The position numbers and the translations under genes were made by a program. A stretch of DNA of 60,000 bases from NCBI GenBank assembly GCA_949358305.1, contig OX442317.1:4098186-4158185 (forward strand), given 5' to 3'. This document shows, piece by piece, positions 6,735-60,000 of this stretch. Below the pieces are notes generated by a model that made no database searches, was not told the origin of the DNA, and worked only from the letters and a program-made list of their open reading frames with translations. Each line of letters opens with the position of its first letter. Position 1 is the stretch's first letter. This stretch comes from Strigamia acuminata (lineage: Eukaryota; Arthropoda; Chilopoda; Geophilomorpha; Linotaeniidae).

Positions 6735-8777
6735 ATGGCTGCATTTCCACGTATTTCAGGCTACATAGTTACTGAGAAGGTTGGAAGTGGCTCTTACGCT
6801 ACTGTATACAAGGCTTACCGCAATGTAAAACCAAAAATCGCATAAATTTTGACATTTAAAATTAAATAATTTTAATTTAAAAAATTAATTTCTTTTCAGG
6901 ACGGCAAAAGGGAAGTCGTAGCTGTAAAATGCGTACTAATCGCATCATTGAGTAAAACGTCAGTAGAAAATTTATTAAACGAAATCTCATTACTGAAAAA
7001 ACTTAAACATGACAATATTGTACAAATGATCGATTTTCTGGTACTTATCTCGTCTCTACGCAACAAATTAATCTTTTTATTAACACATTTAACTATTTAT
7101 CGATCTTCCAGTGGGACAAAAAACACATTTTTATTATTATGGAGTTTTGCAACGGCGGAGATTTATCCACATTCATCAAAACTCGACGCTCTCTCCCGGA
7201 AAAAGTCGTCAAAGTATTTTTACAGCAATTAGGTGAATACGAAAATGAAAATAAAAATGAAAATTGTGATGTATTAACCGTTTAAACGTTTCCCAGCCAA
7301 CGCATTACAGTTCCTACGCAATCAAAATATCTGTCACATGGATCTCAAGCCACAGAATATTTTATTGACGTCTCAAGGAGAACCAGTATTGAAACTTGCA
7401 GATTTCGGTTTCGCTCAGTATTTAAAATCGGACGATGACGGAACGTGTCTTCGAGGTTCGCCGCTTTACATGGCGCCGGAGATGTTACTAAACCAAAAAT
7501 ACGACGCTAAAGTTGATTTGTGGTCTGTCGGTGTAATTCTATACGGTAAATTTAGACTTTTAATGTGTAAATAACAAGTAGTTATCAAAACGTTTGATTT
7601 TAAGAGTGTTTATTTGGCCGCGCACCTTATTCGTCGAGAACATTCACTGAACTAAATGAAAAAGTAAAAAATCCAAGTCCCATCGAGGTATATAATTCGA
7701 ACAAATTCCATTTTTTAAAGTTTAAATTAAATTTAATTTACATTTTTAGATTCCATATGGCGCTCACATCTCCAGAGGTTGTCGCGATTTATTAACAAAA
7801 TTGCTTAAGCGGAATCCGACGGAAAGGATCAGCTTTGAGGAGTTTTTTAATCATTCGTTTTTGGATTTGGAACACGCGCCATCTTGTCGTTCGTACGAGA
7901 AAGCCGTGGAAATCCTCGCGGAAGCCGTTCAGAAAGACGAAGCGCAAAATTACGCGAAAGCCGTGGAATTATATTGCTCGGGACTTCAGTATTTAGTGGC
8001 CGCAATCCAATGTTTGTATTATTTATCCAGCGGACCGTAATCCCAGCTTGATTTCTTACATTTTTACACGATTTTAGATGAGCAAGATGGCGTGAGGAAA
8101 ACGGCGCTGCAGCACAAAGCGCGCCATTACATGGCCCGAGCCGAATATCTAAAAAAAATGCAATTTAAACGCAGCAAACGGAAATCGTCGTTGTCGCTCA
8201 CTCCGTGCCAGGAATTATGTAACAAAACTTAAATAATCATTGATTTTCCCGAGAAAAAATAATAATTTTTATTAACAAAACTATAGTTTTATTATCCGAT
8301 GATTCGCCTACGTTACACGCCGGTTTAATCGTGGGAGAATCCGCCGAAAAATTGGTAATTTTTATATAAATAAATAAAAATAGAATTAAATAAAAATTAA
8401 TTTTTCTATTTTTTCACCAGGACCAGGAAGACAAATACGAGGAGGCGCTGAATAAATACTTTTTGGCCTTGGACGCCATGTTGCCGATGCTGCAAACGGA
8501 AGTAGCGGGCAGACGGAAAGAGTTACTTTCGTCGCAGATTCGGATTTGGATGGAACGAGCGGAACAGATCAAATATTTCCAATCGCTGCGGATACCCGAA
8601 GAACAGGAGTCGATGGAGCTGAGCGAGTTGAGCAGGAAGGATGGTTCAAGTAAGAACCGATTTCCATTCGTTTTTAGGATTAAGAAATATTGTTATTCAC
8701 GTTTGAAGAGTAAATTGCGTTTTTCTTTATGATTATTTTTGTTATTTGTAGCTGACAGCAACTGCAGCGTTCAATAA
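6735..8777 (+). CDS. ULK3: ULK3-like serine/threonine kinase with two MIT domains
   Basis: Autophagy- and Hedgehog-linked kinase of the ULK family. The start [20 protein letters not shown] at 6735 gives the glycine loop. VAVKCVL holds the catalytic lysine. [14 protein letters not shown] is the catalytic loop, with HMD in place of HRD (ULK3 kinases have HLD). LADFGFAQ is the DFG motif and [11 protein letters not shown] the APE motif. After the kinase domain come two helical MIT modules, [20 protein letters not shown] (from about 7900) and [20 protein letters not shown] (from about 8410), which in ULK3 bind ESCRT-III tails. The protein ends DGSTDSNCSVQ at 8777. At least nine exons have consistent phases. 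Assignment is firm because the kinase plus double-MIT order is diagnostic. Confidence 0.95.
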
Positions 8778-9065: not shown

Positions 9066-11009
9066 TTATTCCGAAACGGTTCGCCAGTTATCGTTTGAAG
9101 GGTTATTTGGCTCTACCCACTGAAACGGGACGCTATTCCCTTCGTTTTCGTGCGCACAATAAGAATCCCAAACTTGTCTGCAAAATAAATTTTGATATTT
9201 TAGGTGGTACTTTGTATTTACCATTAAAAAAATGTATTTTTAAGCATAAAAATCAGTTTTTAAGCTGAAAATACATCTTTTAAATTAATTATTGACCTTT
9301 TTTGACTAAAAATCGTCATTTTTTGACTAAAAATCGTCATTTTTTGACTAAAAATTGACTTTTTTTGACTAAAAATTGTCATCTTTTGACTAAAAATTGA
9401 CACTTTTGACTAAAAATTGACCTTTTTTGACCAAAAATCGTCATTTTTTGACTAAAAATCGTCATTTTTTGACTAAAAAGCGTAATTTTTTGACTAAAAA
9501 TCGTAATTTTTTGACTAAAAATCGTAATTTTTTGACTAAAAATCGTCATTTTTTGACTAAAAATTGACCTTTTTTGACCAAAAATCGTCATTTTTTGACT
9601 AAAAATTGACACTTTTGACTAAAAATCGACAACTTTTAGCAAAAGAAAATTAATTTTTGTGTATCACACCATTTCTAATCGATTTTATACCTGATGCACA
9701 ATAAGGAGTCTAAACTCCTGTCGGCTTGTGTGTAATACAACGTAAATGGGTAAATCGGATCATCCGGTGAAATATCTAAAAGAAAAGATAAGATTAAACA
9801 CTAAAAAATCTAAACAAAAACAATTTAGATCCAATGTTTACTAACCCGAATTTCCAAACAAACTCTCCGCGAGACTATCTTCAACAGCGCCAAGTTTACT
9901 CCGTAAATCACTCGCTTCCTTCTTCTCCGCCTCCCGATCCAACATAACACAAAGCGCCTTCTCCTCGTCGTGGTAATCCCTCAACTGAACCTCCAACATC
10001 TTTTCCAACGAATTCGTCGTCGTCCCAAACTTTTCATCCGATTCTTTCGTCGTATACAACCCTAAAAAAAATTGAAAAAAAATTTAAAACATTTTTATTT
10101 TATTTTTACAAAATGGCGCCCAATACCTCTTCTTTCCGCACTTTGCTTCTTGAGCATTCGTAGTTTGTGCAAAGCCCGAACCAATTCTAACGCCCGTCTA
10201 CTCTCCGATATCTTCTTCCTCACTTCCGACAAAATACTATCGGCCTCTTTTTTCAACTCCTCCTCCCTTTTATTTCGTTTCACCCTCTCGTAAATCTGAT
10301 TCTGCCAATCGTCCAAATCCCTGTGCAGATTAACCCTCGTTTCCTCCGCATTTCGCGCCTCCCGTTTCAATTCATCGTTCCTCCGTCTATTTCGCATCTA
10401 AATTTAAATCAAATCAATCGAACACATTTTTCGCAAATAAATTCCAAAATTTGTACTCTTTTCTTCCTAATTTTTCCCAGTTTGTTGTCCACTTGTTCGT
10501 TGTTTGCAGCAAGCACTGCTTCGAGTGCGTCGAATCTCTCCCTGAGTTGCGCGGCTTTATCACACGTTAAATCCCATAACGTTTTGTCGCCGGTGGAAAC
10601 CATTCCCTTTAATTGTTCGTGCACCACGGACAAACCGTGTAATAATTTCATAGCTTCGCCCAGCTGCGATTTCGCTTCGGGAATCTGTAAATAACCGATA
10701 TAAATTATAAACGAAATGTCCATTTTGTGTTTTATATTTTTATGTTAAGACCAAACTTACGTTTAAATTACATTGGGGTTGTTGTTTGACTTTCCCCGAA
10801 CATTTGTTTAGTTTTCTGGCCCATTCGTTGACCCATTCCTGGTCATTTTCCCTTCGATTTACGTGTCGCGCACCTGTGTTTGGAGCGGGGTAATAACTCG
10901 GCGGCCATGTTGTCGGGGATACCAACGGCGGGTAATACTGATACGTTTGTCCGTGTTGTTGTTGCGCATCTTGGTTGTACCATCCCGGCCATATTTGCGG
11001 TGGTTGCAT
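9066..11009 (-). CDS. PDCD7: PDCD7-like U11/U12 snRNP 59K protein, 6 exons
   Basis: Component of the U11/U12 di-snRNP of the minor spliceosome. Exon 1 (10761-11009) encodes a Pro/Tyr/Gln-rich N-terminus starting MQPPQIWPGW and ends in a conserved WVNEWARKLNK segment. Exons 2-4 are long charged coiled coils. Exon 5 gives DDPIYPFTLYYTQADRSL, and the last exon (9066-9177) gives WDSYC...WVEP...WRTVSE; together these match the conserved PDCD7 C-terminus. The last exon is separated by an intron (9178-9690) filled with a 21-bp minisatellite. Reading through that intron instead would truncate the protein a few residues after LLCIR. The presence of this gene implies U12-type splicing in the organism. 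Confidence 0.88.
9290..9645. repeat. Intronic minisatellite, about 21-bp unit (PDCD7 last intron)
   Basis: The repeats have the form ttttttgactaaaaatcgtc with several variant units (bases a/c before att, and shorter tgacactttt units). They fill most of the intron between the last two PDCD7 exons. The minus-strand open frame across 9379-9612 is repeat-derived. Confidence 0.93.
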
Positions 11010-11670
11010 GATAATTTATCGGACAAACTGCACGTCCATATGTAAACAAATGAAACAAAATGACGACAGAGGGCGCTATTTTCGGTTCGAATTTTTTAAT
11101 TCCTGGTTTTATAAGTGTTTAATAACGAACGAATACAAATATTTAAAACTTAGTTTTTCTCTTTCATGAAAACATGAAAAATACAAAACAAAAAATGAAA
11201 ATGTCGTAACAATTGTGAAGAATTAAATTTATTGCATAGTGACGGACACCCCGTCACAAAATAAAATTATTTTTTTTTAAAAAAAACCACAAATTTAACT
11301 AAAATAAATGCTATTTTATATAATTTTTATGACTTTGCACCTCGTTTTGATTTTTTTGATCTTTTTTTAAGAAAAAATAGGTGCAATTTTCTTTTGACTA
11401 GAACTCTATGACTAATCGTAACAAATTCCTACATAAATTTGACTCTTTTTCAAAATGAATGAATTTGAACGAGATTGACTATTAAGAGCTATTGTTTTTA
11501 TCTCTCTCCAAAAAAATTGCTGAGTTTTTCTTTGGAATCCATAGGGCGAGTCCCAGAGCTTATTTGAAACAAAAAGCATTCGTGGTCCCACCTAACTATC
11601 CGACCCAGAATTTGTCTAATATTCGGACCAGCAGCACAAAGTTTTTTTTCTTCTTTTTCTCCTAATAATT
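11010..11670. other. Intergenic DNA between PDCD7 start and GNB5 stop
   Basis: Contains the upstream region of PDCD7 and the 3'-UTR of GNB5, both on the minus strand. I see no further coding region or RNA gene. Confidence 0.5.
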
Positions 11671-16905: not shown

Positions 16906-17394
16906 GTTAGGTTAAGGATGGGTTAGGTTAAGGATGGGTTAGGTTAAGGATGGGTTAGGTTAAGGATGGGTTAGGTTAAGGATGGGTTAGGTTAAGGATG
17001 GGTTAGGTTAAGGATGGGTTAGGTTAAGGATGGGTTAGGTTAAAGATGGGTTAGGTTAAGGATGGGTTAGGTTAAGGATGGGTTAGGTTAAGGATGGGTT
17101 AGGTTAAGGATGGGTTAGGTTAAGGATGGGTTAGGTTAAGGATGGGTTAGGTTAAGGATGGGTTAGGTTAAGGATGGGTTAGGTTAAGGATGGGTTAGGT
17201 TAAGGATGGGTTAGGTTAAGGATGGGTTAGGTTAAAGATGGGTTAGGTTAAGGATGGGTTAGGTTAAGGATGGGTTAGGTTAAAGATGGGTTAGGTTAAG
17301 GATGGGTTAGGTTAAGGATGGGTTAGGTTAAAGATGGGTTAGGTTAAGGATGGGTTAGGTTAGGTTAGGTTAGGTTAGGTTAAGGATTGTTGTT
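16905..17394. repeat. Satellite, 15-bp unit (ggttaggttaaggat), ending in TTAGG repeats
   Basis: About 30 copies of ggttaggttaaggat, with an aagat variant at intervals. The array ends in a pure (ttagg) run at about 17358-17384, which is the arthropod-type telomere hexamer-like pentamer. There is no other evidence of a telomere; it is an internal array. Confidence 0.96.
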
Positions 17395-17409
17395 TTGTTA
17401 GGCCTAATC

Positions 17410-17875
17410 TCAAAGTATAAATTCTCATTTTCACTATCTCATTTTCACTATCTCATTTTTACTATCTCATTTTCACTATCTGATTTTCACTATTTCATTT
17501 TCACTATCTCATTTTCACTATCTCATTTTCATTATCTCAATTTCACTATCTCATTTTCACTATCTCATTTTCACTATCTCATTTTCACCATCTCATTTTC
17601 ACTATCTCATTTTCACTATCTCATTTTCACTATCTCATTTTCACTATCTCATTTTCACCATCTCATTTTCACTATCTCATTTTCACCATCTCATTTTCAC
17701 TATCTCATTTTCACTATCTCATTTTCACTATCTCATCTTCACTATCTCATTTTCACTATCTCATCTTCACTATCTCATCTTCACGATCTCATTTTCACTA
17801 TCTCATTTTCACTATCTCATTTACACTATCTCATTCACTATCTCATTTACACTATCTCATTTTCACTGTTTACAT
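17410..17875. repeat. Satellite, 14-bp unit (tatctcattttcac)
   Basis: About 30 copies of tatctcattttcac with accatc and catcttc variants. The 181-codon open frame across it exists only because the sequence is a repeat. Confidence 0.96.
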
Positions 17876-18119
17876 TATTTTCCATCTGTAAATTCTCAGT
17901 GCAATTTCAATTCCAGCTTGTATTTGTGCTTGGGCGATAAATTCGCATGACTTTTTTTAGGCATTCAGTGCAATTTCAGCTGGTATTTGTACGTGGGCGA
18001 TAAATTCGGATGCGTGTTCACATCTACAGTGTAGTTTCAGCTTTTATTTGTGCGTGGACGATAAATTCGGATACGTTTTCACATATATATGAATTGACCA
18101 TTTTCAGTAAAATGCCAAA

Positions 18120-48900: not shown

Positions 48901-51900
48901 CAATTTAGAGAATGATAAATTCGAATTAGAAAAGAAATTATTCAAGTCCGAAGTGAGAGAATTAATTTTCTATTTCTAAATCAAATTAAAAATTAAAAAT
49001 TATTTCCACAGAGCGAACTTGCTAAATTTCAACGAAATTTTGACCATTCCTCTTCCCTTTATCTCCGGGGCCTCAAAACACCGACCCAAGAAACCAGTAA
49101 ACACCAAATAAATAAATTAATTAATAAATCTTTAACTAAAAATAATTTATTTCGCTCCAGATGCCGAAGTCGAGAAGATGAAAAAAGCACTGGAGTCGGT
49201 AATGGCGGCCAACGACGAAAAAGACAGAAAAATCGACGATTTGCGGGCAGCTATGTCGCGATACAAACGAATCCAAGAAAAAATGATCGAGGAACACACG
49301 AACAACGAGTGGAGTCCGCATTTTGTGAATAAATTCACATCTGCCGGCAACGACTTGAAGTTGTCGGATAAACCGCCATTGGCTCCTTCTAGGTCCATGG
49401 TGACGTCGACGCCCGTGCGTGACGGATCGTTGCCGCAAACGAGTCCGGTGTCCGCCGTGGGCCGCAGATCGATGAGTCCCGTGGTGCGCAAATCGCCCGG
49501 TTTGAACTGCACTCACGGCTCGGAGGAATCGGTGGCGACGCCCGCGGTCCAGTCGGGTCAAGCGCCGCGGAACATCGAGCATTACGGCACTGTACCTAGA
49601 AATTACGCGCCCGCTTTGCAAGCTTTGGCTAATTCCGGTAGTTCGTCCACGTTACCTGGAAATGTGGCTTCGCTACAATCGTCGAAACCCTCGTTTGGTA
49701 AAACGTTCTTCTCTCGTGCTCGTGACTCCTCTCGCAGCACCAGTGCTCCTAATTTAGGTGATGGGACTTTTCTTTGTTTGTTTGTTGTGGGACTTTTCAA
49801 AGGTGGGACAAAGACTCGAGGCTCAAAAAAGTGGATTACACAAAAAAAACTGCAGTTTTATGTGCAAAAGTATGTTTTTTAGGCCTGTTAATGCCCGCAA
49901 ATGCATATTTTAGGTACCAAAATAGATGTTTAGGTCTAAAAATCCGTTTTTAAGTCTGTAACTGCATTTTTTTAGGTTTATAGGTGCATTTTTTAGGTTT
50001 AAAGATGCAATTTTTAGGTTTATAGATGCATTTTTTAGGTTTATAGGCATTTTTTAGGTTTATTAGGTGCATTTTTAGGTTTAAAGATGCATTTTTTAGG
50101 TTTATAGATGCATTTTTTAGGTTTATAGATGCATTTTTTAGGTTTATAGATGCATTTTTTAGGTTTATAGATGCATTTTTTAGGTTTATAGATGCATTTT
50201 TTAGGTTTATAGATGCATTTTTTAGGTTTATAGATGCATTTTTTAGGTTTATAGATGCATTTTTTAGGTTTATAGATGCATTTTTTAGGTTTATAGATGC
50301 ATTTTTTAGGTTTATAGATGCATTTTTTAGGTTTATAGATGCATTTTTTAGGTTTATAGGCATTTTTCAAGTTTATAGGTGCATTTTTAGGCCTGTAGAT
50401 GCAATTTTTTGGGTCTGCAGATGCACTTTTAAAGTGTGAAGATGCATTCTTGATGTGTAAGAACGATTCTTTAATAGACCAAGTGCAAAATGTAGTTTTA
50501 TGCCAAAAAATATCGTTTGCGCCGATGCCAACTTGAGGTCCTCGTCCCACCACTGGGGTGTTTATTGTTGTTTTTGTTGTCACATTTTTCACGATTCGGG
50601 AATTTATGTTGTGTTTTTGTTGTCACGTTTTTCACGATTCGGGAATTCGTGTTGTTTGCTTTGGCACGCCATACGTGTTTTTACTTTAATTTTTTTTTAA
50701 TTATTTTAATTGATTATTTAATTAATTATTTATCTATCCATAAAAATAACAGCCGAGACTGAAATCGATTCGGAGCACGACGGAAGATACGGACACATCA
50801 ATCAGGAAAATAATAAACCCAAAACAAGCAAAGGGTTTAAAAAATACTTCGGGAAATTAAAGCGAAGTAATTCGCAGTCCATGGAAAACGAGGTGGTTCC
50901 CGCGGATTTCCAGCGCGGAGGACTTCGCGCCACCGCCGGATCACGACTCGCCTGGTCCCAGGACATCAAACGATCGAAAGAGTAAAAAAATAAATTGTGT
51001 TACTCTATTACCCCGCTTTAATTTTTACTTAAAAGAGCCCGGGTGAATAATTATGTTGGATTTTGGGCCTGAAATTTGAGTTTTCTTAATTTTCTGAAGA
51101 TTATTAATACAATATATATACAATAAATTTATAGAAATTTAGGCCAATTTTCTACATTTTGGACATCGGAAAAATGCTTTTTATGCTCGTTCAGGCCAGG
51201 GGTCGGCAACCTGCGGCTCTTTCGATGTCAAGATGCGGCTCTCCAGTTATAGGAATGTACTTCAGTTTAGCGACGCCGTTTTTTAACCTAATTAAACCTA
51301 ACCTAGCTGAATCTAAGCAGCTGAAACACGACGTCGCTAAAACAGGCGTTGCTAAAATAATATATATATGTTAGTGACTCTTTAAAAACTGGGAAATTAT
51401 GTAAATTTTAACTTTTGGCTCTTTCGTCTCAAAAGGTTGCCGACTCCTGGTTTAGGCTCAATTCTTATTGAAAAAGATTTGCACTTAAACCGGGTTGCCG
51501 GTAAAAACGGGATTTATCGGCATGCCGGTAAAACTCGCACTATACCGGCTTGCGGCTGAAAGCGGGGTAATAAGGTAGCATTTTGCTAATTTGTTGATTT
51601 TATTCTCTAGTTTGATCGACGTGCCGTTTGCTCGCTGGGATGCGGAGAAAGTGATGGCATGGCTGCACGATTTAGGCCTGAGCGCGTACATTAGCGAGTG
51701 CAAACGATGGGTGCGTAACGGCGATCAATTGCTGAAAGCCACGGTCGACGATTTGGAGAAGGATTTGGGCATCAAAAATTCACTTCACCGGAAGAAGCTG
51801 AGTCTGGCGTTGCAGGCGAAAGGCTCGGAAGAGGAAGACGTGTTTGCGAATCTAGATTACCATTGGGTAATGCGTTGGTTGGATGATGTCGGATTGCCGC

Positions 51901-53360
51901 AGTACAAAGATGTGTTTTCGGACGGGCGTGTGGACGGCAGGATGCTTAACCGATTAACAATGGTGAGGCTTTAAGCAGTGTTTTTTAGTTTTGTGGATCT
52001 TTTTGCATTTTGTCACCTTTTTTTCATTTTTTCATTTCTTACTCTCTTTAAAAAAATACTCTTTCTCTGTCTTCTGCGAACGGCCCGAATTCGGTACGTG
52101 TCTTTATCATTATCACAAAATAAAAATTAAATGAATGTTTTTTTTTTTATATTTGTATTAAATTAATTATAAAGTTGATTTATTTATTTTTACTTTTTTT
52201 AATTGATTTTTTAGACTGATTTAACTCATCTTCGCGTCACTTCACTTCTACATGCAATCAGTCTGAAACAAGGGATTTACGTGTTGCGACTTCACGGATT
52301 TTGCCCTTTGATTTTGAAAAGACGATCCGCACCCGATGAAGTAAACGGAAATATTTTCTTTTAAAAAAATCAAAATTGATCAAAATTGACCAAACATTGA
52401 CCAAAATTGACCAAACTTTGACCAAAATTGATCAAAATAGACCAAAAGTAATCAAAATTGACCAAAAATTATGGAAATTGTCAAAAATGACCAAAAATTG
52501 ATCAAAATTGACCAGAAATTGATCAAAATTGACCAGAAATTGATCAAAATTGACCAGAAATTGATCAAAATTGACCAGAAATTGATCAAAATTGACCAAA
52601 ATTGATCAAAATTGACCAAAATTGATCAAAATTGACCAAAATTGACCAAAATTGAACGTTTTTGTCATTAAAATAGTCTCGAAACCCACCACCAACAGAC
52701 GTAGCTTTGTGGACAAACCACAGAGTAATGGAATGGCTTCGATCCGTCGACTTATCCGAATATGCTCCGAATTTAAGAGGGAGTGGCGTCCACGGTGCTT
52801 TAATGGTAATTTTTTTTACAAAAATATAAAAATTTAAGATTTTAATTTTTTTTTTTTTTAGGTTTACGACGAGCGTTTCAATTCAGAATTACTCGCGACC
52901 CTTTTATCGATTCCTCCAACGAAGACGTTGCTACGCCGGCACCTGAGCATGCACTTTAAGGATCTCGTAGGTCCTCAAGTGATGCAGCAGAAGCGCGATC
53001 ACGAATCCATGCCGACCTACAACCCGCTCACTCCCCATTTGAAAGTGAAAATCGTGAAAAAAAATCAGTTCTCGCTCTCGCGTAAACGATCAAAGTCCGA
53101 AGCGGAAGATTTACTTTGTCCTATGGACGACCAAAACCGCTTGAAGTTCTTAATGTCGCAAATGTCATATTCCAACGTGATTTCTCGCAATTCGCCTTCA
53201 CCGGTGTCTCATGCGCCGGTCAAATTGAGTCCGCGAGCGACCAGAGAAGGTAAATCGAACGAACGAACGCAAAAATGATGAATTTTCAGCCGTTAATCGA
53301 TTAATTTCCGATTTTTTCTCATTTTTAGATAAAATAAACGAAGAAAAGGAACAATTTTAA
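45999..53360 (+). CDS. Liprin-beta (PPFIBP-like) with coiled coil and three SAM domains
   Basis: Scaffold of synapses and adhesion sites that pairs with liprin-alpha. Exon 1 (45999-46247) gives ASDMLAAAIEQMDGIIAK, near-identical to the liprin-beta N-terminus. The next exon, in phase, is at 48569-48652 (SLDQNEWMDKIRRLENDKST), then 48707-48952 (VSVLMEQVEAQNEKIRDVEV, coiled coil) and 49161 onward (EVEKMKKALESVMAANDEKD, then a Ser/Pro-rich region). 50752-50985 has GFKKYFGKLKRSNSQS, and 51611-51962 has SAM1 (WDAEKVMAWLHDLGLSAY) and SAM2 (WVMRWLDDVGLPQYKDVF). SAM3 runs over the 52216, 52677 and 52862 exons (LWTNHRVMEWLRSVDLSEYA). It ends DKINEEKEQF at 53360. Two introns are minisatellites and one carries a hAT MITE. 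The coiled coil is shorter than in vertebrates. Confidence 0.94.
46628..46640. promoter_or_regulatory. X-box-like (RFX) motif gttgctaggcaac
   Basis: gttgctaggcaac fits the palindromic X-box consensus (GTTNCC, spacer, GGNAAC) bound by RFX factors, usually at promoters of ciliary genes. It lies 20 bp before the ATG at 46660. Confidence 0.6.
46660..47184 (+). CDS. Unrecognised 174-residue ORF nested in liprin-beta intron 1
   Basis: Intact frame starting MKRGDDKKVALSQQDSSGDD, then a Pro/Ser/Lys-rich stretch, SFSEALQELIEQITAPAERE (helical), a KPKQAQAKPK low-complexity segment, and a C-terminal part with DVSRDYKWNEVEDRPSGLDG and RWRSPTKEFWQNGIHDK. GC is higher than in the surrounding intron, which favours coding. 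A possible donor at 47119 (gataag|gtagtt) means the last residues may be intronic. A perfect X-box-like palindrome sits just upstream, hinting at a ciliary role. The same strand as liprin-beta also allows an alternative first exon, but the liprin exons join in phase without it. Confidence 0.55.
   Translation: MKRGDDKKVALSQQDSSGDDKLTFVVTIKPSPPSRRKFAKPTPSASPPGDKSFSEALQELIEQITAPAERELEEQLRPTKQAKPKQAQAKPKPHAQPGPPQLQQARINRLHDDVSRDYKWNEVEDRPSGLDGVNGKNRWRSPTKEFWQNGIHDKVVGIVFEGISVEVECVGYLR
47185..48146. other. Liprin-beta intron 1 sequence without supported genes
   Basis: AT-rich; short open frames only. Confidence 0.4.
48147..48160. promoter_or_regulatory. X-box-like (RFX) motif gtaaccatggcaac overlapping a start codon
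   Basis: gtaaccatggcaac matches the X-box consensus GTNRCC-N-RGYAAC and contains the ATG at 48153. It is the second such motif in the same intron. Confidence 0.6.
48153..48482 (+). CDS. Cysteine-rich ORF, nested gene or alternative liprin-beta first exon
   Basis: MATGRKSSTHEQEDNDEEFN is followed by WPDNEFVRRALSLGHETNEG and a Cys-rich part (CCENMSACAACSQLCSLPVR...). A stop at 48482 follows SLKVEK. The codon before a possible donor (CTC AAG|gtcgaa, 48473) is in phase with the liprin exon at 48569, so it could be an alternative first exon replacing exon 1 at 45999. The Cys-rich second half may be non-coding read-through. No family recognised. Confidence 0.4.
   Translation: MATGRKSSTHEQEDNDEEFNWPDNEFVRRALSLGHETNEGAARVACCENMSACAACSQLCSLPVRSCVHQRLSCVCHAENLYTSVSRFHCPTAGFEYLSQNRNSLKVEK
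49905..50450. repeat. Intronic minisatellite, 21-bp unit (gtttatagatgcattttttag)
   Basis: About 24 copies in a liprin-beta intron. Each unit starts with GT and ends with TTTTTTAG, and the next unit starts again with GT. Minus-strand open frames across it (49950-50592) are repeat artefacts. Confidence 0.96.
51197..51449. mobile_element. hAT MITE, 253 bp, in liprin-beta intron
   Basis: Termini caggggtcggcaacctgcgg and ggttgccgactcctg are inverted repeats of the common hAT CAGGGGTCGGCAA type. The 8-bp flanks gttcaggc (51189-51196) and gtttaggc (51450-51457) are a TSD with one difference. tgcggctctttcg-type motifs recur at both ends. Confidence 0.87.
52360..52672. repeat. Intronic minisatellite, 20-21-bp unit (gaccaaaattgatcaaaatt)
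   Basis: About 15 copies fill the liprin-beta intron between the exon ending at 52340 and the exon starting at 52677. The donor gtaaac and acceptor aaaatag lie at the edges. Confidence 0.94.
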
Positions 53361-53803: not shown

Positions 53804-55637
53804 ATGAGATTTATTCAATTGGAGAAGAAAGAAGGTAAGACCGCTCTAGACAGGATACTCAAGTATGGATGCGGGCCTAACTTTGTTTTAAATCGTAAAG
53901 AGACGTTTGAGTGCATGGTCAAAGAGCAGGTAAGGAAAAGTGATTGAAAATCGATTATATTTTTGTCTTTTGTGGTTTTTGAAGGGTCAGACATTTTGGT
54001 TCCGGTTTTGGTTAGCTTTTTCTACGCACCCGGAGTGCCCTCTCGTCTGTGTATGTTTGCGAATTGATTTCGATTTTTAATGATTTTATTTATTTTTGTG
54101 TCTAAATTATTTATTTTTGTCGAATAGGTGGAAAGGAAATGGCCCGATTTGTTTTATTATTGCTACATATCTTTGCACGAGCATTTTGTAGAAGGTAAGT
54201 TTTTATTTTTTGTTTGTTTAGTAAATAATTAATTGAGTTTTGATTGATTTGGTGATCTAGCATCGGTAGAGGACGCTTGTCAATTTTGTTGGACCGTGAT
54301 ATTTATACCAGGTTGAGAGAGCGATTATTTTTTTTTTTTGGTTTTATTTTAAATTTTGGAAAAATAATTTGGTTTGTTCGGTAGGGGGAAGGCCAAGTAA
54401 AAAGAAAAAGTCTAAAGAGTCACCTTTGGAACAGGTAAAGTAGAGGTAGAAGTACATTTACATGTAAATGTAGAGGTGGCTGATACAAATCGATCAAATT
54501 TTGATGCAAATCAACCAAATTTTGTTGCAAATCAACTGGATTTTGTTGCAAATCAACTGGATTTTGATCAGAACAACCAAATTTTGATGTAAATTAACAA
54601 AATCAACCAAGTTTTGATGTAAATTAACAAAATCAACCAAGTTTTGATGTAAATTAACAAAATCAACCAAGTTTTGATGCAAATCAATCAAATTTTGTTG
54701 CAAATCAACCAAGTTTTGATGCAAATCAACCAAATTTTAAAGCAAATCAACCAAATTTTGTTGCAAATTAACCAAATTTTGTTGCAAATCAACTGGAATT
54801 TGATCAGAACAACCAAATTTTGATGTAAATTAACAAAATCAACCAAGTTTTATGCAAATCAATCAAATTTTGTTGCAAATCATCCAAGTTTTGATGCAAA
54901 TCAACCAAATTTTGAAGCAAATCAACCAAATTTTGTTGCAAATTAACCAAATTTTGTTGCAAATCAACTGGAATTTGATCAGAACAACCAAATTTTGATG
55001 TAAATTAACAAAATCAACCAAGTTTTGATGCAAATCAATCAAATTTTGTTGCGAAACAATCAAATTTTGTTGAAAAACAACAAAATGTTGATAAAAATGA
55101 CATTACAAATGTGCTAAGATGAGAGAGAGAGATTTGCTGCCCCACATAAACAATAAATGTCTTTTCTCTGCTTCAAAAATTCTAAAACGGAAGGTAATCA
55201 CTATACCAACTAACCAAAATGCCATTTTTTGGGATCATTTCGCATTAATCTAGTCGTTTCTTTAGTTGCAAGCTGATATATACGATGCGGTGGCGTTGAA
55301 CTTTGGCATTGCCTTGTGCGAAGTGTTTTACAAATGGCTGCTCGCTAAAGATGCGGACGACGGATGCCGGAATTATTGGTGCGTGCCCGAACCTTATCTA
55401 GACTGTTGCTTTCAACCGACGCCCTTGGAGATTTACTTCTCCAAGTTATGGAAGGACAAAGTGCTCAAACTTCTTGGCGTTAATAAAACGCAGCTGCCTT
55501 GGTTGAAAAAATTGCTGGACGATAAACACGAGTGCGTGGACGAATGTGAGGGCTACAAAGACATCATTAAAACCATTAACGAAATCAGGGACTTTATAGA
55601 CCAAAGAACGACTGAAATTCAATGCGCTGACGAATGA
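53804..55637 (+). CDS. Unrecognised cysteine-rich intracellular protein, 5 exons
   Basis: Exons 53804-53929, 54128-54194, 54261-54311, 54385-54434 and 55266-55637 join in phase to give 221 residues from MRFIQLEKKEGKTALDRILK. There is no signal peptide. Visible segments are KYGCGPNFVLNRKETFECMV, ERKWPDLFYYCYISLHEHFV, a Lys-rich GRPSKKKKSKESPLEQ, then a long last exon with NFGIALCEVFYKWLLAKDAD, GCRNYWCVPEPYLDCCFQPT and a C-terminal helix (KDIIKTINEIRDFIDQRTTE). About 15 cysteines are spread unevenly. I recognise no domain. The fourth intron is a 600-bp minisatellite. The spacing of exons and consistent phases support a real gene. Confidence 0.7.
54480..55090. repeat. Intronic minisatellite, about 21-bp unit (gcaaatcaaccaaattttgtt)
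   Basis: About 28 copies with variants (aactgga, aaccaag, taaattaacaaaa). A longer block (54550-54720) is repeated as a whole at 54800-54930 and again at 54970-55060, so there is a higher-order structure. Confidence 0.94.
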
Positions 55638-56122: not shown

Positions 56123-59100
56123 ATGTTGCGCAGAGCGAGAATGAGGAGAATTACCAAATCGCTTTTGCAGCACTTAATGCGAATTGAATTGCTCAAAGAA
56201 TCGAGTTTTGGGCTTAGAAAAATCTCCGGGAACGTGAAAATGTCGAAATTGTTCTGGCTACTCGTCATTACCGGCTGTTTTGTCGGACTAAGTTTCCAAA
56301 TGTACACGAGAATCGCCTACTATTTCCAATACCCGGTCGCCGTGGACGTGCACAACGTATACGACGGACAAGTTCCGTTTCCTTCGTTGATGTTGTGCTC
56401 GTACGACACTCCGCCGATTGCTGAAATATGGAAAAACACCGAAATGCCTCAGCTGAGTACCAAGTTCAATTGGAATTGCATCAACGAATTTTATTCGCTC
56501 ATCAAGTACAGTAATGTGTCGATAGATCAACTCTACAGTGCTGCGAACATGAGTGCGATCACAACCGAGTTTTCAATCAAAAAGGTGAAATTGTCTAAAT
56601 TTATTAATTTTCGCACTTTTTATTTAATATTTGCTTTGTGCAGAAAAGAAACGTCGCGTTGGATGTCAATTACAAGTATATTTCAACGCCATTTGGTATC
56701 TGCATGCTCATGGAACTTGGTAAACCGATTTTTCTTTCATTCCTTCCGTAATTTGATTTGATTTTACTAAATTCTGTGCAGATGGCGACGAGTTGAACTC
56801 ATTTGCTGGGAGTTCAGTGTCGGTGAAGCTGCACAAACCGCGGAAAGACGTGTGTGGTCGGGATGCTCCCTATTTTGTAAGTATAAGCCTCGAAAAAACG
56901 GACATTTCTCTAACTACATTTGAATTCCAGTTGAGTTCGATACCTTCGATGGACATACCTTCTCTGAAATACGCAATCGCACAAATATCAGGCACCAAAA
57001 TGGGTCTATGGTTTGGTAAGACGAAGGTAAACAAATCCAAAGCTCAAAAAGATGAATTTCTAGACGAACTAAAATTAAATTTTCCTCTTCTAGTACACTT
57101 TTGTTAACTCCCCATTGCATCATTGCGTGGACGACGCCACGTTTGCAAAATGCATGTCAGAATGTTTAATCGATCATCTCAAGAAGGGTTTAACGTGCAG
57201 GTAGAATTCTAATGACGGGCCCCGCCATCAGAGAACTTATTTAAACATTTTCTAGGTTTCCCTTCACCCCGTCCGAGATTGAGAAACCAGATTGTGTCGA
57301 GCGCAAAGAATCCGAAACGGCGTACAGCAAAACGTTGGATTTCTACGGGGACTTGGATCCCATCAACGATTGCCACTGCCCGAAAAAATGCCAAGAATTG
57401 ATCCACCATCTGAACGCCGAAGCCTCTTTAATCGCCGGCCAAACATCCACGTCGAGTCCGTGCGACATTTCGTCAACGGCGCCTTGCTACACCGAAATCG
57501 AACTCTTGTTTGTCGGCAACGAAAGAACCGAATTCCAAGAACGTCTCGTTTACAGTTTCGCAGCTTTGATGGCCGATTTCGGAGCGAATTTGAGCTTCTT
57601 TCTCGGTCTATCCACACTATCCCTGTTGGACAATCTGCAAAACTACTTGAAATTGGCGGCGTTGAGGCAAAAGACGAAAAAATTCGCCAGACACCCAAAA
57701 ATTCTGAATTTATCCGAACGGATTTTGCGGAAAACCGTCGCCCGGGAGAAGGAAACCGTTCTGCGAAAGGGGAGAATGAATTTGGTGAAGATTCTCTACT
57801 ACGTCATGTTCGTCGTGTCCATTTTGTCAATTTACAACCGACTGCGCCTCTACTGGCACGAGCCCGTCAACACGATCGTCGTAATGGTGCAGGCCGACAC
57901 GATGCAATTTCCGGACGTGACCGTGTGCGGCGAGGACGCGGATTTGGGCGAATATCGAGCGAAACGGATGGAGCAAACCGGGCGAGATTCGTGTCGATTT
58001 GTGCCGTGGGAACTGCTCGATTACCTGCCTATCGAAGACCTGTGGGAGTTCCTCTCGTTGGAAGGCAGCATTCTTCCGGAAGTTGACGTTTTCAAGGCAG
58101 AATAATCAAATAAAAAATCATAAATATTATAATTTTCTAATTTTTCTCAGTATTACGGAACTCCTAGCATCACTAGATTCGAAAGGACTCAACTAGACCT
58201 TCCCTTTGGTCAATGTTCTAAATTCGTGGCCCCAAGTACGACTAATTAGGTTTTCCAGATGATTTTTATTTCCGATTAATTATTTTTACAGTGCCGAGCA
58301 AATTTCGAGGTTCGTGGGGCATGGGAACGATTATTATGTTAAGATATGATACGCCCGATGAAGATTGCGCGAAAGGATTCTTCAAGGCGAGTATTTGGTG
58401 TTGTTTTGACTGCTTAGGGTCAACGAACCTTAGATCCATTCATAATTTAGTCTTTTTTTTCAGTATTTTGTGACACCGAGAGGTGAACCGATCGATTTAA
58501 TGGCTATAAATAGCATGCCGCTATACACGGCCAGTGGACTATGGCTTGAAGAAAAGAGGGTACGCGAAGCGAGATAGATTAAATCTTTGAAAAATAAATA
58601 TTTATAAAATTAATCACACAGGTTTATCACGTGAATGCGAAGAGTAAACCGTGCGTGGACAACGTCAGTCACTTCAAGTGTGCGCAGGAATGTTTTGAAG
58701 AGAAACTCGCGCTCGTTTTGCCCGAAATCCGATGCAGGTTAGAAGAATAGAAGAGCCAAATATTTAAATAAAAAAACTCTAAATGTTTATTCGTGGTCAC
58801 CAGGTTGCCGTACTTCAAGGAAGATAAATTTCCGCTGTGCAATTCCTCGCGGAGTGCATTAGCGGCCCACGCCGCTTACATGGGGGTCTACCAAGCGTCG
58901 AAAACATCCGCCGAGTGCAAATGCACCAGACGTTGCGAAGAAACTTACTACGACACGCGCGTTTACAACCCGCCCATGGTCGAGCACGTCACTGTCTTCA
59001 ACTACCTTTTCCACTCGAATCTGATCGAAATGTTCGTCGACGTCATGTTGTATCCTTTCTCCACTTTTCTCAGCGACATTGGCAGTATTTTAGGCCTAAC

Positions 59101-59179
59101 CATCGGGTTTAGTTTGTTGTCTTTCTTCGATTACCTCGTTGAATTGAAGCACTTGGTTCGGGGTCACTACACAAAATGA
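56123..59179 (+). CDS. Tandem-fused double DEG/ENaC sodium channel, 11 exons, 814 residues
   Basis: Amiloride-sensitive-type cation channel with two complete subunit modules in one frame. Module 1: TM1 FWLLVITGCFVGLSFQMYTR (about residues 45-65), VPFPSLMLC, Cys-rich extracellular exons, CHCPKKC, TM2 ALMADFGANLSFFLGLSTLS with the G-L-S filter (about 376-412). Same exon continues with a basic linker into module 2: TM1 LVKILYYVMFVVSILSIYNR (about 454-478), FPDVTVCGED, extracellular exons, CKCTRRCEETYY, TM2 FLSDIGSILGLTIGFSLLSF with G-F-S, stop at 59179. Exons: 56123-56584, 56644-56719, 56782-56876, 56931-57026, 57094-57200, 57256-58096, 58151-58235, 58292-58386, 58464-58559, 58622-58737, 58804-59179; total 2445 nt. 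Two introns (after 58096 and 58386) use gc donors. The conserved pre-TM1 His-Gly is Phe-Gly in module 1 and absent in module 2. Confidence 0.88.
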
Positions 59180-59536: not shown

Positions 59537-59891
<355 letters not shown>

Positions 59892-60000
59892 CTTTGGAAA
59901 AGATTACAATTAATCTTTGTCGCTTGAATCCCCCAAAAACCTCGTTTATGGATCTGGTACTCGAGTGACACGAGCCAGACCCGAGTGTTTGTTGTTTAAT
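59892..60000. other. Upstream of LITAF-gene exon
   Basis: Probably intron or 5' region of the LITAF gene; nothing else supported. Confidence 0.4.

Follow-up and report, generated by a model that had tools for sequence, protein, structure and literature searches.

Two DEG/ENaC Subunits Joined Head to Tail in a Single Predicted Gene of the Centipede Strigamia acuminata

Results

The channel gene and its surroundings

The window analyzed here is a stretch of 60,000 nt from Strigamia acuminata (contig OX442317.1, forward-strand positions 4,098,186 to 4,158,185). Toward its end lies a predicted channel gene of 11 exons (56123-59179, plus strand; Table 1), which join into a single 2445-nt frame of 814 amino acids plus a stop codon, with no internal stops. 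The exon boundaries are predictions, made from splice consensus and from the homology between the two halves of the gene (modules 1 and 2). Directly downstream, and convergent with the channel gene, is a LITAF-like zinc ribbon gene (59537-60000, minus strand; PF10601, 48.6 bits), and 53804-55637 is occupied by a five-exon, cysteine-rich open reading frame of 223 residues, the last exon of which has no Pfam match. Elsewhere the window carries a complete G-protein beta-5-like WD40 gene (G-beta-5; 13305-11670, minus strand) with nine introns, all with GT donors; the 3' part of a gene that we take, from its SAM-domain sequence, to encode liprin-beta; and, at 6876-8729, a kinase-like exon (29.7 bits against Pkinase, under the cut-off of 31.7) followed by an MIT domain exon, an arrangement presumably like that of ULK3-like kinases. 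A match to PDCD7, which we take to be a minor-spliceosome protein, is located at 10412-11020 on the minus strand (27.5 bits, cut-off 27), from which U12 splicing may be retained in this species. Intergenic arrays of short degenerate repeats (e.g., GATCAAAATTGACC) are present at 52360-52660, 54460-55080, 17374-17947, and 49953-50622, the last two being open over more than 130 codons.

Table 1. Predicted features of the two-module channel gene (window coordinates)
Feature	Coordinates	Strand	Description
Exon 1	56123-56584	+	Start codon, cytoplasmic N-terminus, TM1, start of module 1 ectodomain
TM1 of module 1	about 56240-56308	+	Within exon 1
Exons 2-5	56644-56719, 56782-56876, 56931-57026, 57094-57200	+	Module 1 ectodomain, predicted
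Exon 6 (fusion exon)	57256-58096	+	End of ectodomain 1, TM2, linker, TM1, start of ectodomain 2, in one frame
TM2 of module 1	about 57545-57643	+	Within exon 6
Linker	57644-57775	+	Residues 409-452 (44 residues)
TM1 of module 2	57776-57832	+	In-frame ATG (residue 453) is its start
Intron 6	58097-58150	+	Weak GC donor, 16.7% GC
Exons 7-10	58151-58235, 58292-58386, 58464-58559, 58622-58737	+	Module 2 ectodomain, match BRTNaC1
Intron 8	58387-58463	+	GC donor
Exon 11	58804-59179	+	End of ectodomain 2, TM2 of module 2, short C-terminus, stop
TM2 of module 2	about 59042-59146	+	Within exon 11

Both modules belong to the DEG/ENaC family

The original prediction described a single gene with two complete modules and four hydrophobic segments, and our model bears this out. 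Among the best 40 windows of 19 residues, hydrophobic segments of the 814-residue product fall into four clusters, starting at residues 36-47, 376-385, 451-459, and 770-786, and the most hydrophobic window of the whole protein is TM1 of module 2. Each module alone thus has the two TMs per chain of a DEG/ENaC subunit, whereas the predicted chain has four. The exon structure is also repeated, with module 1/module 2 sizes of 76/85, 95/95, 96/96, and 107/116 bp, exactly as first described, and with start phases of 0, 1, 0, 0, and 2 common to exons 2-6 and exons 7-11.

The full protein matches Pfam ASC (PF00858) with 159.6 bits in three stretches (cut-off 23.6), the best of which spans residues 30-403 in module 1; exon 6 alone scores 60.2 bits. 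When aligned with each other by blastp of the two sequences, the modules are 22% identical over 400 columns (E 3e-17, 68.9 bits). Among solved structures, the best match to module 2 is the centipede channel BRTNaC1 (8ymx; E 9.4e-19, residues 29-364), followed by PDPNaC1 (9jf7; E 6.8e-10), with four sequences in total at E 0.001, and the match of module 2 to BRTNaC1, a solved DEG/ENaC, is the basis for assigning it to the family. Module 1 matches 21 such sequences, including ASIC5 (aligned with residues 28-95) and ASIC1 at E 5e-8 to 7e-8.

Family motifs are found in both modules. Each has a cysteine-rich ectodomain between TM1 and TM2, with eight thumb cysteines spaced 9, 4, 11, 14, 26, 2, 4 in module 1 and 9, 4, 14, 13, 26, 2, 4 in module 2; an FP..C motif following TM1 (PFPSLMLC and QFPDVTVC, respectively); and the G-x-S pore signature in TM2 (GLS and GFS). 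In TM1, the FP..C motif, the cysteine-rich ectodomain, and the TM2 G-x-S, each module is therefore like BRTNaC1 and PDPNaC1. The canonical His-Gly motif before TM1 is in neither module, with FG in module 1 and no counterpart in module 2, a feature shared with PDPNaC1, which is described as conducting without this motif (PMC12714832), so that its absence is no ground for exclusion from DEG/ENaC, a family described as animal-specific (PMC3583452). The departure from BRTNaC1 and PDPNaC1 lies in the chain itself: these are single two-TM subunits, three per channel, whereas here two subunits are predicted in one chain, separated by a 44-residue linker.

The fusion exon and linker

Exon 6 had been predicted to run uninterrupted from TM2 of module 1 through the linker into TM1 of module 2, and we find that it does so in frame and with no stop. 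Its frame is open from the acceptor to 58102, and the stop at 58103-58105 lies past the predicted donor. Openness alone is weak evidence because a second plus-strand frame is also open across most of the exon (57283-58083); it is the family homology on both sides of the joint that fixes the frame. Exon 6 (841 bp) exceeds the combined length of the first and last exons (462 + 376 = 838 bp) by only 3 bp, and resembles the last coding exon of one gene followed immediately by the first coding exon of another. It thus has no space for a 3' UTR, a promoter, or a 5' UTR.

Neither AATAAA nor ATTAAA occurs in exon 6, or anywhere between 57074 and 58109, and the exon contains no donor-like GT or GC site matching at 7 or more of 9 positions and no acceptor-like AG preceded by at least 10 pyrimidines in 14. 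These internal splice-site tests are not sharp, given that the gene's own predicted donors and acceptors score 5-8 and 6-12, respectively, and weaker sites may be present. When exon 6 was folded alone, the predicted structure had a mean pLDDT of 37.1, too low for use.

The linker itself looks coding. We trained a codon model on the remainder of the fused gene together with G-beta-5, and the linker scores 13.0 bits, compared to a maximum of 4.6 bits among the 104 open windows of 2690 noncoding 132-bp windows; the median for coding windows is 24.2 bits, with 7% of these scoring no higher than the linker. Other frames of the linker score as well (10.8 bits for a minus-strand frame and 6.9 bits for another plus-strand frame), and the test is therefore a better discriminator of coding from noncoding sequence than of one frame from another. 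The linker has a GC content of 0.471 (measured on 57641-57776), with values of 0.395-0.526 for exons, 0.167-0.400 for the 10 introns, and 0.325 and 0.333 for the flanks. Its composition (8 K, 7 R, 1 H, 3 E, and no D) places 15 K/R against 3 acidic residues which, with the even number of TMs preceding it, suggests that it would be cytoplasmic. Taken at the level of the gene, the DEG/ENaC fusion in this sequence is confirmed as real and clean, the protein product being a prediction from it.

Origin of the fusion

The fusion had been attributed to tandem duplication with loss of the intervening stop. The first part fits the repeated exon phases and an unrooted six-sequence tree of the thumb-to-TM2 pieces, in which the modules group with a UFBoot of 78, although this tree is weak (another node has 40, and the module branches are 1.4-1.7 changes per site) and the 22% identity makes the fusion a separate event from the duplication. 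A recent tandem duplication we reject, since the modules are so diverged and since module 2 scores higher against BRTNaC1 (82.8 bits, 24% identity) than against module 1, which itself scores 42.7 bits against BRTNaC1. These scores point to an old paralogue pair, perhaps sisters, that would have been fused later. As a route, losing the intervening stop and nothing more is an oversimplification, given that exon 6 lacks space for the UTRs and promoter that separate genes would have had between them. More plausibly, the DNA between two long-diverged tandem paralogues would have been deleted, so that the final coding exon of the upstream copy came to abut the initial coding exon of the downstream one.

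No further DEG/ENaC module was found in the window, with tblastn of the fused protein giving only matches of E 6 or worse outside 56123-59179. A protein collection searched with the full protein yielded 7158 candidates, none at E 0.001, and a pattern scan of viral and genome contigs gave 2 and 30 matches, respectively, none of them confirmed; these collections yielded no DEG/ENaC of any kind, and the results are thus little informative. The likely kind of ancestral state is illustrated by the Drosophila ppk genes, which are unfused neighbors: 9 of 31 are reported to lie in chromosomal clusters, in a paper whose main text nowhere uses the terms fusion, fused, or tandem (PMC3583452).

GC donors and the possibility of a truncated product

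Two of the 10 introns have GC donors, both in module 2: intron 6 (AAG/GCAGAA at 58097) and intron 8 (AAG/GCGAGT at 58387). These were absent from the original prediction, and they pose a risk to the full-length product. The intron 8 donor matches the consensus at the remaining 8 of 9 positions, whereas that of intron 6 matches at only 5 of 9. Introns 1-5 all have GT donors, as do all 18 of the introns read across four other genes in the window (nine in G-beta-5, four in the 3' part of liprin-beta, four in the open reading frame at 53.8 kb, and one in LITAF), and GT-AG introns are reported to account for 98.3% in animals (PMC7072748). The GC donors of module 2 (2 of 5) differ from these 23 (5 in module 1 and 18 in the other genes, none of them GC) with a Fisher value of 0.026; comparing the whole fused gene with the 18 other-gene donors gives 0.12.

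What most threatens the full-length product is intron 6, with its weak GC donor. If this intron is left unspliced, the frame would continue as K-A-E-stop, with the stop codon and an AATAAA at 58109 both within 18 bases, and the product would be 561 residues that comprise module 1 but, of module 2, only TM1 and a stub. We considered whether this truncated form could be the main product, with the intron 6 donor often unused and the mRNA ending in intron 6, reflecting either regulation or a module 2 that is losing constraint. The proximity of the stop and the AATAAA to so weak a donor, and the restriction of GC donors to module 2, are in keeping with this. Nonetheless, we think it unlikely, because module 2 is intact, with no stop or frameshift in 378 residues, has kept all eight thumb cysteines and the pore signature, and matches BRTNaC1 over residues 29-364; moreover, the GC donor of intron 8 is otherwise consensus. 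AATAAA is also present in introns 9 and 10 (58593 and 58767), as expected in A+T-rich DNA, and its occurrence in intron 6 may be due to chance. Intron 6 might act as a switch that sets whether the product has two modules or one.

Discussion

A proposed natural concatemer

The reading that we tentatively favor is that one gene encodes two head-to-tail DEG/ENaC subunits, probably as one four-TM protein, with its modules occupying two adjacent places of a trimer and a separate subunit occupying the third. In its favor, the DNA shows a continuous frame, exon phases that recur from one module to the next, a linker that resembles coding sequence, and DEG/ENaC motifs in each module. Splicing across both GC donors would give one mRNA for both modules, and its translation would give a single four-TM chain with a cytoplasmic linker. 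Within a trimeric cation channel, the two modules would then sit side by side and another DEG/ENaC subunit would take the remaining place, forming a pore of 2+1 stoichiometry. A more elaborate version would have the concatemer build a 2+1 heterotrimer of fixed composition, completed by a dedicated subunit of its own, or else a pair of coupled pores, with the weak GC donor after the second TM1 serving as a one-/two-module switch; this version seems to us rather doubtful.

There is a counting problem, in that a channel with three places is not filled by a whole number of two-module chains. Two-pore-domain potassium channels are a natural fusion of two oligomeric-channel units in one chain, and there two-unit chains fit a pore of four, whereas a pore of three, as expected here, offers no such fit. 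In engineered ASIC concatemers, as here, subunits are arranged head to tail with their cytoplasmic ends joined in one chain. Head-to-tail ASIC1a constructs of two, three, or four subunits are reported to give typical currents in oocytes, although smaller bands were also seen with dimers (PMC4529235), and part of the current may thus come from fragments; trimeric concatemers with 19-residue linkers are also reported to work (PMC10329638). That engineered dimers conduct makes a natural concatemer a reasonable reading. The engineered versions are nonetheless man-made, use ASIC subunits, and, as described, have artificial linkers added between the tails, whereas the modules here are 22% identical and the whole 44-residue joint is natural. 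Among the listed titles and abstract openings of open-licence papers, none reports a natural two-module DEG/ENaC. Public protein databases presumably list predicted proteins with two ASC domains, and the architecture may be annotated elsewhere without having been studied.

Alternative assemblies and artifacts

The full chain could also assemble in other ways, either with three chains tying a module 1 trimer to a module 2 trimer as a twin channel, or with two chains filling a four-place channel. Each module has its own pore signature and set of thumb cysteines, and like may assemble with like, as PDPNaC1 is described as a homotrimer and the BRTNaC1 entries contain three chains each; for a four-place channel, crosslinking results have been put forward as an argument that ASIC1a is tetrameric at the surface (PMC4529235). 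We regard these arrangements as improbable, since on general grounds a 44-residue linker would need to span two pores in a twin channel, and the solved family structures of BRTNaC1 and PDPNaC1 are described as trimers.

The remaining alternatives question the fusion itself. In one, two genes have been taken for one: each module would be transcribed from a separate start, and the continuity of the frame across the joint would be fortuitous. The in-frame ATG at 57776, the first codon of TM1 in module 2, is preceded by purines and could serve as such a start, but exon 6 lacks a module 1 stop codon, a canonical poly(A) signal, and space for a promoter or UTR, for which reasons separate genes were rejected; it also contains no internal splice site of good quality, its linker is coding-like, and we consider the explanation very improbable. 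Similarly remote is an assembly error, in which a false join deleted the DNA between two tandem genes, for although tandem paralogues are a known cause of collapsed assemblies, these modules are too diverged to collapse (only one direct repeat, of 16 nt and 88%, falls at corresponding positions of the two, 57124 and 58652, and the longest, 22 nt at 77%, lies inside module 2), and a random join would need to preserve the frame and yield a plausible linker.

Implications

Concatemers are a laboratory device for forcing DEG/ENaC stoichiometry. If the two-module chain predicted here is indeed a natural concatemer, then this arrangement is viable in an animal, with a natural linker of 44 residues, shorter than the engineered joints, between long-diverged subunits. 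If intron 6 is often retained, the locus would instead be a fusion that alternates between one-subunit and two-subunit products, or one whose second half is en route to decay. A natural concatemer, if true, would make testable the odd question of how a chain of two units is accommodated in a channel with three places.
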